A stretch of 38,693 nucleotides of DNA from Lentzea aerocolonigenes (GTDB lineage Bacteria; Actinomycetota; Actinomycetes; Mycobacteriales; Pseudonocardiaceae): contig NZ_JYJG01000244.1 of assembly GCF_000955955.1 (NCBI RefSeq), positions 1-38,693 on the forward strand, given 5' to 3'. This document shows positions 35,710 through 36,878 of this stretch, one piece after another (position 1 is the stretch's first letter; each line of letters begins with the position of its first letter). The position numbers and the translations under genes are program-made. A model generated the notes under the pieces. It saw only the letters and a program-made list of their open reading frames with translations, searched no databases and was not told the DNA's origin.

Positions 35710-35739
35710 TTGCGGCACTCCTGGGTCATCCGTCAGAGT
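35710..35739 (+). promoter_or_regulatory. Candidate promoter of the leader-tRNA transcript
   Basis: TTGCGG at 35710-35715 and CAGAGT at 35734-35739, with 18 bp between, are a weak fit to a housekeeping promoter and would start transcription about 26 bp before the leader start. It is the best of several poor candidates in 35690-35760. Confidence 0.28.
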
Positions 35740-35771
35740 GGATCTCGACGAACCGGAGAAGGGAGCCAGCC

Positions 35772-35819
35772 GTGATCCAGCACATGTGTCATCAGCACGA
35801 CTGGTGCTCCTCGGCATGA
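35772..35819 (+). CDS. Leader peptide of the tRNA array (QHMC leader)
   Basis: A 15-codon frame, GTG start, reading (M)IQHMCHQHDWCSSA then TGA. GGGAG at 35761-35765 stands six bases before the GTG, a good ribosome site. Residues 3-6 are Gln-His-Met-Cys, the same four amino acids in the same order as the four tRNA genes that follow. In all, eight of the 15 codons are Gln (CAG twice), His (CAC, CAT, CAC), Met or Cys (TGT, TGC), which are among the rarest residues in actinomycete proteins. A slow supply of any of these tRNAs would stall the ribosome here. The peptide itself is probably not the product that matters. It has no other domain or signal. Confidence 0.75.
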   Translation: MIQHMCHQHDWCSSA

Positions 35820-35841
35820 GCTGACTCATGTCCCGGGGAGC
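35806..35841 (+). promoter_or_regulatory. Antiterminator stem between leader and terminator
   Basis: GCTCCTCGG at 35806-35814, inside the leader frame's end, pairs with CCGGGGAGC at 35833-35841 over nine bases (one U-G). Nested within is ATGAG-CTGA-CTCAT at 35816-35829. The pairing uses A35839-C35841, the base of the terminator stem, so the two exclude each other at that point. A competing upstream hairpin, AGCAC (35794-35798) with GTGCT (35804-35808), involves the same left arm. This is the 1:2, 2:3, 3:4 layout of classical attenuators. Confidence 0.65.
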
Positions 35842-35875
35842 CGTCCCGTCGCCGATGCGACGAGGCGGCTTTTTT
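35839..35875 (+). terminator. Intrinsic terminator (attenuator) before the tRNA array
   Basis: Stem 35839-35852 pairs with 35857-35870 around a CGAT tetraloop, with one C-A mismatch and one U-G pair, and is followed by T35870-35875. It points in the plus direction and lies 20 bp after the leader stop and directly before tRNA-Gln, so it ends the leader transcript unless opened. Confidence 0.88.
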
Positions 35876-35877
35876 GT

Positions 35878-35950
35878 TGCCCGTTGGTCCAATTGGCACG
35901 GACGCCGCGCTCTGGACGCGGAGATCGAGGTTCGAGTCCTCGACGGGCAG
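35878..35950 (+). tRNA. tRNA-Gln (anticodon CTG)
   Basis: A full canonical cloverleaf of 73 nt. Acceptor TGCCCGT with ACGGGCA, discriminator G35950. D stem GTCC/GGAC with loop AATTGGCAC (has the GG pair), anticodon stem CCGCG/CGCGG with loop CTCTGGA giving anticodon CTG at 35912-35914, variable region AGAT, T stem CGAGG/CCTCG with loop TTCGAGT. It reads CAG codons, which occur twice in the leader. No CCA is encoded. It begins two bases after the T tract of the terminator. G73 agrees with glutamine identity in other bacteria. Confidence 0.9.
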
Positions 35951-35952
35951 CT

Positions 35953-36026
35953 GTGACCGAAGCCGAAGCAGTCGAGGCGCCAGGTTGTGGTCCTGGTCGA
36001 AGCCGGTGCGAGTCCGGTCGGTCACC
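35953..36026 (+). tRNA. tRNA-His-like (anticodon GTG), unusual elbow
   Basis: Acceptor GTGACCG with CGGTCAC, discriminator C36026, and CCA encoded at 36027-36029. Anticodon stem CCAGG/CCTGG with loop TTGTGGT, anticodon GTG at 35987-35989. T stem GCCGG/CCGGT, but loop TGCGAGT has G at position 55 instead of U, and the D loop (GAAGCAGTCGA) has no GG pair, so the usual G18-U55 and G19 contact of the elbow is lost on both sides. Position 8 is A, not U. The base before the acceptor (T35952) is not the G-1 that histidyl-tRNA synthetase needs. It starts two bases after tRNA-Gln. Confidence 0.75.
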
Positions 36027-36030
36027 CCAT

Positions 36031-36099
36031 CGCGCGTGATCCGGTGATCACTTGGGTCTCATAAGCCCGAGGTGCCTGGTTCAACACCAGGACGCGCGA
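36031..36099 (+). tRNA. tRNA-Met-like (anticodon CAT), reduced D arm
   Basis: Acceptor CGCGCGT (36031-36037) with ACGCGCG (36092-36098) and discriminator A36099; an outer T36030-A36099 pair is possible. The D stem GATC/GATC starts directly after the acceptor, with no positions 8-9, and has a loop of only four bases, CGGT. The anticodon stem TGGGT/GCCCG holds loop CTCATAA with CAT at 36060-36062. T stem CCTGG/CCAGG with a normal loop TTCAACA. CAT could also be an isoleucine tRNA precursor (lysidine-modified), but A73 and the Met in the leader favour Met. Starts at most one base after the CCA of tRNA-His. Confidence 0.75.
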
Positions 36100-36102
36100 T
36101 AC

Positions 36103-36172
36103 GACCCACGTCACGACGGTCGTGTGACGGTCTGCAAAGCCGGAGGACTGGGTTCGACTCCCAGGTGGGTCT
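36103..36172 (+). tRNA. tRNA-Cys (anticodon GCA), short D arm
   Basis: A 70-nt cloverleaf. Acceptor GACCCAC with GTGGGTC, discriminator T36172, the cysteine identity base, then encoded CCA at 36173-36175. D stem CACG/CGTG with a five-base loop ACGGT. The anticodon loop CTGCAAA gives GCA at 36134-36136; its stem has four pairs with an A-G at the bottom. Variable region AGGA, T stem CTGGG/CCCAG with loop TTCGACT. Position 8 is G, not U. It reads TGT and TGC, both present in the leader. It lies over the antisense 3' end of the IMPase-like gene. Confidence 0.85.
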
Positions 36173-36878
36173 CCAGGTGATCGAGGAGCACGTCGTGCAG
36201 GACGTCGTTGGTGGCCAGCACGACGCCCTCCTCGATCACCGTCACGCGCCCACCCGCCTCCCGCACGAGCACCGCCAGGCACGCCAGGTCGAACCGGTCC
36301 ACGCCCGAGGCGAACACCGCGTCCACCTCGCCGGTCACCAGTTGCAGCACCGACACGTCGCCGTCGACGACGACGCATGTCCTCAACACCGGTTTCCTCT
36401 TGCCGTGCAGGCACACCCTGGCTCCGTCCAGAGCGTCTCGCGTGGACACCCGGCCCTCGGTCTCCCGTCCGTTCGCGATCACCCGGCACCCGATCCCGCG
36501 CCCGGCCGCCATCGTGATGCCCATCGACGGCAACGCGGACACCGCGAGCGCCGGTCCGTGTTCGTCCTCCATCGCCAGGTCCACCGAGTAGGTCGGCTTC
36601 CCGGCCACGAAGCGGGCGGTGCCGCTGATCGGGTCGATCAGCCAGCGCCGTCCCGAAGTCCCCGTCCGCTCCGGGCGTTCCTCGCCGGCGACACCGTCGC
36701 CCGGCACCGCCTCGGCCAGCCGTCTGCGCACCAGGTCCTCGACCGCCAGATCGGTCGACGTGACCACGCTGCCGTCGTGCTTGTACCGCACGTGAACGGT
36801 GTCCGAGCCGAACGCCTGCTCTGCCATCTCTCCTGCCTGGCGAACGATGTCCAACGCCAGGCGCATGTCGGTCCACAT
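36111..36878 (-). CDS. Inositol monophosphatase family protein with altered metal site
   Basis: A 255-residue protein of the IMPase/FBPase superfamily, which dephosphorylates sugar or inositol phosphates with Mg. Visible are the TSTDLAVED segment, AGEERPE (the Glu of the first metal site, about 66-67), and WLIDPISGTARF at about 79-90. The family motif there is DPIDGT; here the second Asp is Ser85. The second motif, usually WDxAAG, appears as FDLACLAVLVREAGG. A missing metal ligand suggests loss or change of activity. The last 19 residues (HLGVEPSPPALQTVTRPS) are encoded on the strand opposite tRNA-Cys and look unlike the family, so the gene end was probably remodelled when the array arrived. 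ATG 36878 or 36866 may start it. Confidence 0.78.
   Translation of the reverse strand: MWTDMRLALDIVRQAGEMAEQAFGSDTVHVRYKHDGSVVTSTDLAVEDLVRRRLAEAVPGDGVAGEERPERTGTSGRRWLIDPISGTARFVAGKPTYSVDLAMEDEHGPALAVSALPSMGITMAAGRGIGCRVIANGRETEGRVSTRDALDGARVCLHGKRKPVLRTCVVVDGDVSVLQLVTGEVDAVFASGVDRFDLACLAVLVREAGGRVTVIEEGVVLATNDVLHDVLLDHLETHLGVEPSPPALQTVTRPS

Follow-up and report, generated by a model that had tools for sequence, protein, structure and literature searches.

What is the purpose of a short reading frame that stands in front of a tRNA array and contains codons for the amino acids of that array's own tRNAs? The question is raised by a stretch of 38,693 nucleotides of Lentzea aerocolonigenes DNA (hereafter the window), taken from a genome assembly of 10.2 Mb in 648 contigs. 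The attenuators of amino-acid operons (trp, his, leu and ilv type) act by ribosome-mediated transcription attenuation, and the locus resembles them in its leader rich in the codons that would be sensed and in its alternative antiterminator and terminator; unlike in these operons, the controlled genes would be tRNA arrays, one leader would deal with many amino acids and the product would be the sensed species. T-box riboswitches react to the charging state of tRNA and can act on transcription termination. They share with the locus the response to tRNA, but the T-box RNA binds the tRNA directly, whereas here a leader frame would do the sensing; no T-box was matched among 4227 Rfam families in the window, nor around the leader at a relaxed threshold. 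The non-tRNA Rfam matches obtained around the leader at that threshold were taken as chance, several of them being microRNA models lying on a palindrome. Judging from its sequence, the window leader very probably controls the array by ribosome-mediated transcription attenuation, sensing a shortage of the array's own tRNAs. The switch is a known one and its target, tRNA arrays, is new; the loop would be one that senses its own product.

The leader and the tRNA array of the window

The original prediction described a frame of 15 codons with a ribosome site and with Gln-His-Met-Cys as residues 3-6, followed by genes for the Gln(CTG), His(GTG), Met(CAT) and Cys(GCA) tRNAs in that order. Both are present: the frame reads GTG ATC CAG CAC ATG TGT CAT CAG CAC GAC TGG TGC TCC TCG GCA TGA (35772-35819), and the four tRNAs behind it were called by ARAGORN or Rfam. 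The features of the locus are the following:

35710..35739, forward strand: predicted promoter, TTGCGG (35710-35715), 18 nt, CAGAGT (35734-35739), from the hexamer letters; weak hexamers
35760..35765, forward strand: ribosome-binding site AGGGAG, from the sequence
35772..35819, forward strand: leader peptide MIQHMCHQHDWCSSA (M-I-Q-H-M-C-H-Q-H-D-W-C-S-S-A), 15 codons, from sequence, population statistics and ribosome-position folding
within 35772..35819, forward strand: predicted sensing codons Q3, H4, M5, C6, H7 and Q8, from population statistics and folding
35794..35808, forward strand: predicted protector hairpin AGCAC/GTGCT (strands 1:2), from folding, -6.6 kcal/mol
35806..35841, forward strand: predicted antiterminator hairpin GCTCCTCGGCATGAG/CTCATGTCCCGGGGAGC, from folding, -23.8 kcal/mol for 35801-35842
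35839..35875, forward strand: predicted intrinsic terminator AGCCGTCCCGTCGC/GCGACGAGGCGGCT followed by T6, from folding, -22.4 kcal/mol, and -15.4 without AGC
35878..35951, forward strand: tRNA-Gln(CTG), ARAGORN; Rfam 57.8 bits
35953..36029, forward strand: tRNA-His(GTG) with unusual D and T loops and encoded CCA, Rfam 41.8 bits; ARAGORN at a relaxed threshold
36030..36100, forward strand: tRNA-Met(CAT), ARAGORN
36103..36173, forward strand: tRNA-Cys(GCA), divergent, Rfam 30.6 bits (cut-off 29); ARAGORN at a relaxed threshold

The array is a tRNA cluster beyond the normal set. Its tRNAs are mostly extra copies, as separate normal genes for Gln(CTG), His and Met tRNAs lie elsewhere in the same genome; normal Cys, Gly(GCC) and Lys(CTT) tRNA genes were not found in this fragmented assembly. 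The Gln and His tRNAs are phage-like. The region matches 106 phage records, including 60 Mycobacterium phages and 42 Gordonia phages, and the His tRNA has long stretches in common with the His tRNA of phage Sixama. By eye, the D loop of the array His tRNA lacks GG and its T loop reads TGCGAG; in its acceptor and D arms it is nearly the same as the His tRNA of the Gordonia phage Sixama. Immediately 3' of the Cys tRNA lies a long inverted repeat (36176-36240), at the end of an opposite-strand frame of the inositol monophosphatase family, and this repeat may be the end of the array transcript.

Occurrence of the element and match between leaders and arrays

A terminator pattern (GGGAGCCGCCC, 8-24 bases, GGGCGGCTT) was searched in 297 genomes of the Pseudonocardiaceae, the family of Lentzea, belonging to 46 genera. 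It occurs at 78 places in 59 of the genomes and 14 of the genera, and the control pattern, read backwards, gave 8 matches. When 35740-36180 was used as a DNA query, the locus was detected in 23 of 24 Lentzea genomes sampled, the genome of the window included (G193 was without it), and pieces of this stretch precede other tRNA sets in other genera. At least one tRNA lies within 420 bases behind 74 of the 78 places (ARAGORN, relaxed threshold). The tRNA sets differ widely: array size in the family ranges from 1 to 23 tRNAs, and a single leader can stand before tRNAs for up to 15 amino acids (L126). No tRNA was found behind the remaining four places (L169, L158, L148 and L129); in L169 what follows the same kind of leader and attenuator (from 530 on the reverse strand) is a frame read as an HNH-type endonuclease, with no tRNAs. 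Scanning named genomes for the exact pattern yielded 45 loci, in Amycolatopsis, Saccharothrix, Lentzea, Actinophytocola, Kibdelosporangium, Actinocrispum, Allokutzneria, Pseudonocardia and Kutzneria; it adds two records labelled Nocardia and Rhodococcus, names that we suspect to be wrong. The genome of the window holds four such elements: the Q-H-M-C array described above, an R-P-F-S-S-R array with the leader MSSRFSSRRPSPRPFSQVSDTGSPP, a lone Asp tRNA whose leader has three GAT codons and a W-G-S-L-A-I-V array with the leader MLAKAQLAGWRILAFLAGCLLVLAWGSRP, the last two leaders having been read by eye.

Leaders were assigned by a rule blind to the tRNAs (a start codon, a ribosome site and a stop 10-27 bases before the motif). 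What is found at these loci is a short translatable frame, its translation being a prediction, ahead of a predicted terminator. Of the 78 places, 73 gave usable leader/array pairs, the four places lacking tRNAs having been dropped together with L120, because its tRNA is without a clear anticodon; the 73 leaders were thinned to 54 at a pairwise string similarity of at most 0.62. Promoter-like pairs lie 25-41 nt upstream of the leader in 51 of these 54 dissimilar loci, and 67% of the 54 reach a promoter score of at least 8, against 1.4% of shuffles. The predicted promoter of the window, 32 nt upstream of the leader, falls within this range. The transcription start that had been supposed upstream of 35772 is therefore predicted from the population of loci, the window's own hexamer pair being weak.

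The relationship between the leaders and their arrays was evaluated on the 54 dissimilar pairs, the readability of codons being decided by plain wobble rules. A fraction of 0.263 of the leader codons is readable by the own array, against 0.145 with shuffled pairings (0/5000 shuffles), and 0.916 of the array tRNAs have a codon in their own leader, against 0.652. In other words, the leaders are enriched in codons linked to what the downstream genes produce. Forty-four of 50 codons are more frequent in leaders whose array has the matching tRNA, including TAT, GAT and AGT, which are rare in other leaders; in the same set, Asn codons are not enriched and Thr codons hardly. The U-ending codons TAT, TGT, GAT and AGT are the most enriched when Tyr, Cys, Asp and Ser(AGY) tRNAs are in the array, and the U-ending codon is not the most enriched one for Ile, Val and His in these 54 loci.

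The match is unevenly distributed along the leader. Among the codons before the last six, 0.296 are readable by the own array against 0.150 in shuffled pairings (0/3000, z 13.3), whereas no match is seen in the last six sense codons (0.136 against 0.118, with 293/3000 shuffles as high); it is missing where the ribosome would cover the antiterminator arm. It is also specific to the leader frame, five out of six control readings being flat and the sixth, a reverse frame, reaching z 3.4, and it persists when one locus per genus is retained (14 genera, 200 draws, median z 5.6, minimum 3.7). Moreover, the readable fraction of 0.296 for the own array drops to 0.154 for the arrays of other loci of the same genus and to 0.146 for those of other genera. 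Taken by itself, the window could owe its four residues in a 15-codon frame to luck, and their order is luck. Yet an explanation by chance or composition bias, in which the leader would be an ordinary small protein or untranslated, is hardly credible when no shuffle equals the match, when the match depends on the frame and survives the reduction to one locus per genus, and when the absence of a tRNA is accompanied by the absence of its codon. The original idea that the leader spells the amino acids of its array is consequently sustained for their content (29.6% against 15.0% over the 54 dissimilar pairs) and not for their order. In 32 loci, codon order bears no relation to tRNA order (mean tau -0.07, null 0.008), so that the in-order Q-H-M-C of the window is a coincidence.

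A closer comparison is offered by the Cys tRNA within Lentzea, where 23 loci are available. A Cys codon occupies the sensing site in all eight loci that have a Cys tRNA and in one of the 15 that lack it. In the former the codon is TGT, at codon 6 in seven loci and at codon 7 in L039; the exception among the latter is L038, which has no Cys tRNA and yet keeps TGC at the sensing site. Ten other loci without the Cys tRNA (L040-L049) have an Arg codon at the sensing site, and L050-L053 have other leaders, with no Cys ahead of the antiterminator arm (L051-L053 translated by eye). The later Cys codon, inside the antiterminator arm, is kept in 11 of the 15 loci without Cys tRNA. In L051 the inner Met codon has been lost and tRNA-Met is still present. 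On a tree of 1.18 kb of upstream DNA, parsimony requires three changes of the Cys tRNA (bootstrap 2-4), while the well-supported branches alone force just one. The comparison that the original prediction called for, whether the leaders of relatives follow their tRNA sets, thus comes out in its favor over the 54 dissimilar pairs, in the Cys codons of Lentzea and in two more families described below.

Alternative hairpins and the position of the ribosome

Between the leader and the array of the window there are two hairpins and a T6 run (z -3.6, with 0/200 shuffles as stable). The predicted antiterminator contains the stop codon of the leader and shares AGC (35839-35841) with the terminator stem. 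A protector hairpin is predicted in the window and in some further folds. A simple terminator scan of the window reported no terminator, probably because of a mismatch in its stem. Alignment of 60 attenuators gives a consensus in which GGCTCCC is paired with GGGAGCC, and the AGCC of the antiterminator doubles as the base of the terminator AGCCGCCC/GGGCGGCT. The two predicted structures are mutually exclusive, during transcription only. Since GGCTCCCCGCCATGA provides leader codons, stop and antiterminator arm at once, the leaders end in GSPP or similar.

The complete antiterminator arm of seven pairs is found in 33 of the 60 relatives, against 3.1% of shuffled upstream stretches. The presence of at least five of the seven pairs, which holds in 60/60 loci, was rejected as evidence for the antiterminator, about 92% of shuffles also reaching five or more. 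Double changes that keep the pairing amount to 22 cells in the antiterminator against 9.1 in shuffles, all in the inner stem, with two of five covariation measures no higher than in shuffles; in the terminator there are 20 against 4.9, all in the upper stem. The GGCTCCC/GGGAGCC helix has zero double changes and its 3' arm is nearly invariant. The outer stems are so close to invariant that covariation is uninformative about them. RNAalifold alone did not recover the antiterminator, and the T-runs are interrupted in loci outside Lentzea.

The behavior of these hairpins was modelled with a ribosome at successive positions, assuming footprints of 11 and 14 bases past the A-site codon. In a growing RNA with the ribosome stalled 12 codons upstream of the stop, AGCC is predicted in the antiterminator in 54/54 loci until six bases short of the complete terminator stem, in 47/54 at three bases short and in 13/54 at the completed stem. 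With the ribosome at the stop, it is in the antiterminator in at most 14/54 loci at the earlier lengths and in 0/54 at the completed stem, the mean terminator then being 1.00 over the 54 loci. At full-length equilibrium the terminator is preferred even with a stalled ribosome: the mean antiterminator is 0.12-0.22 from codon 9 upstream, and the highest values in the window are 0.58 (A of AGCC) and 0.29 (G of AGCC). When no ribosome is present, the antiterminator is the favored fold in 11/54 loci. It follows that the decision of the switch must fall during transcription, and this is, in the models, the weakest step of the proposed switch. In the window, for an RNA that stops at 35866, the A and G of AGCC are engaged upstream with a probability of at least 0.81 as long as the A-site codon is one of codons 1-8, and of at most 0.30 once it is codon 9 or a later one, where the two C's still have other upstream partners. 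This suggests that codons Q3 to Q8 are at positions where sensing is possible and C12 is not, and the Lentzea comparison agrees.

Several scenarios may be confronted with these folds. The preference of the full-length RNA for the terminator in most loci, whatever an upstream ribosome does, could be expected if the logic were reversed, that is, if a completed leader opened the array and stalling closed it. Nevertheless, with a ribosome at the stop no locus keeps the antiterminator at the complete stem and the terminator is full, and in the stalled state the antiterminator wins while the RNA grows, which makes this reversal very improbable. Another scenario takes the leader for a sensor of slow translation in general, as caused by antibiotics, cold or translation toxins, and regards the codon match as a by-product. 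Any stall well upstream of the stop would indeed let the antiterminator form in the growing RNA; yet such a sensor has no need of the codons of its own array, and the match to other arrays of the same genus is no better than to those of other genera, so that we consider it improbable, if somewhat less so than the reversal. The codon match and the alternative folds support instead the logic originally put forward, that of a ribosome-mediated attenuator whose output is the tRNA array. The transcript would begin upstream of the leader, at the promoter-like hexamers, and a ribosome would start the leader at its start codon and ribosome site. A ribosome that arrives at the stop codon would cover the antiterminator's 5' arm, leaving the full terminator free to form and to end transcription before the tRNAs. 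One that lacks Gln-, His-, Met- or Cys-tRNA would stall at codons 3-8 and, according to the folding, the antiterminator would form first; by keeping AGC away from the terminator stem, whose base it is, until RNA polymerase is past the T-run, it would allow the array to be transcribed.

Possible role and occurrence beyond the family

Since the array tRNAs are divergent and mostly extra copies, their likely role is that of a reserve for working tRNAs that are cut, damaged or limiting. A reserve released on a shortage of the matching tRNAs fits the data, and starvation alone fits less well because more tRNA would be no cure for it and because isoacceptors are matched. Among loci with the same amino acid, 358 of 516 codons match the isoacceptor of the array, against 328 expected (sd 7.6, 0/2000), mostly through Arg (13/2000) and Leu (56/2000), the rest being weaker or flat. 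This leans toward tRNAs over amino-acid starvation as the signal. The leaders could instead be ordinary sensors of amino-acid starvation, the arrays being expressed for another purpose such as feeding tRNA-dependent enzymes. Stalling is the same for an uncharged and a missing tRNA, and actinobacteria have known or predicted attenuators for amino-acid and synthetase genes: that of trp has been studied and those of ilvB, leuS and trpS were predicted, while mutants of the candidate leaders of ilvB and leuA in Streptomyces coelicolor did not behave like those of a classical attenuator (PMC1262725). Yet a missing amino acid cannot be made good by extra tRNA, a single leader would have to sense as many as 15 amino acids (L126) and the match reaches isoacceptors, although clearly so only for Arg and Leu; on balance we regard pure starvation sensing as unlikely.

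The reserve hypothesis can be extended, more tentatively. Actinobacteria may keep divergent, phage-like tRNAs as a reserve spread over several groups, each of them locked by a leader that samples just those species which the group can replace. Attack on any tRNA by anticodon nucleases of toxins, competitors or phage defence would then release the matching substitutes, and some phages would carry the same lock; we hold this broader picture to be possible, a little short of probable. The dense tRNA clusters of mycobacteria and actinophages (PMC5966550; PMC10264068) resemble the array, whose Gln and His tRNAs are phage-like, and resistance to host anticodon nucleases has been proposed for phage tRNAs (PMC10264068). 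The study of the mycobacterial arrays contains none of the words leader, attenuat and promoter (PMC5966550). The glyV-X-Y operon of Escherichia coli (PMC10950094) is similar in having a partial terminator or attenuator in a tRNA operon; unlike here, it lies behind the tRNA genes, and the term leader peptide is absent from that paper. As the original prediction had supposed, no described system of attenuated tRNA arrays was recognised in searches of the open-licence PMC literature. If the proposal is true, tRNA clusters, long of unclear purpose, gain a logic that can be read from sequence, the leader telling what is sensed and the array what is supplied; extra tRNAs as an answer to a tRNA-cleaving attack become directly testable in soil bacteria that are harmless, and the leader codons become natural reporters of single tRNA species.

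The element also extends beyond the family. A covariance model built from the 60 attenuators was searched in 394 genomes of the class, with stricter filters in the long searches that may miss weak relatives, and gave 21 places: four in the genome of the window, one (L172) in another genome of the same family (G045) and 16 further ones, of which L178 is also of the family. Three of these 16 (L174, L179 and L188), all outside the family, have a leader and an array, and 13 do not. Two of the three, used as queries, led to two more families, one of the same order (f3) and one of the same class (f19). In f3, 27 of the 30 best loci gave a pair, 19 of them dissimilar at 0.75; the earlier codons match the own array at 0.286 against 0.233 (19 pairs, z 3.9, 4/5000) and the last six are flat, and a stricter extraction pattern leaves 6 dissimilar pairs with z 3.2. 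One f3 array, P-T-I-R-P-V-H, stands behind the leader MITTRRVTVVPTPRPHTIPVIRPTGRWRG. In f19, 9 of 30 loci were examined and 8 pairs obtained (z 3.0, 1/5000; last six flat). Both sets were found through leader DNA and include the query's own locus, their leaders are related and the shuffles behind these values were made within each set only.

Among mobile elements, no such leader was seen at the plasmid tRNA arrays of Curtobacterium (H1) and Prescottella (H3), nor, by eye, upstream of the first tRNA of the array of phage Sixama. Two of the ten IMG/VR contigs with the pattern have an attenuator ahead of tRNA arrays according to the pattern scan, and they constitute a lead and no test:

L315, 3520: attenuator ahead of a tRNA array
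L316, 4573, reverse strand: attenuator ahead of a tRNA array

Read by eye, both have a frame MT(F/S)RRATESRGHGYPCS... without a ribosome site and, immediately upstream of its start, a promoter-like TATGAT or TATCCT, so that the leader seems to begin at its own transcription start. The L315 leader is without a Gln codon though its array has a tRNA-Gln. L316 carries HNH-endonuclease genes and a weak match to a tail protein.
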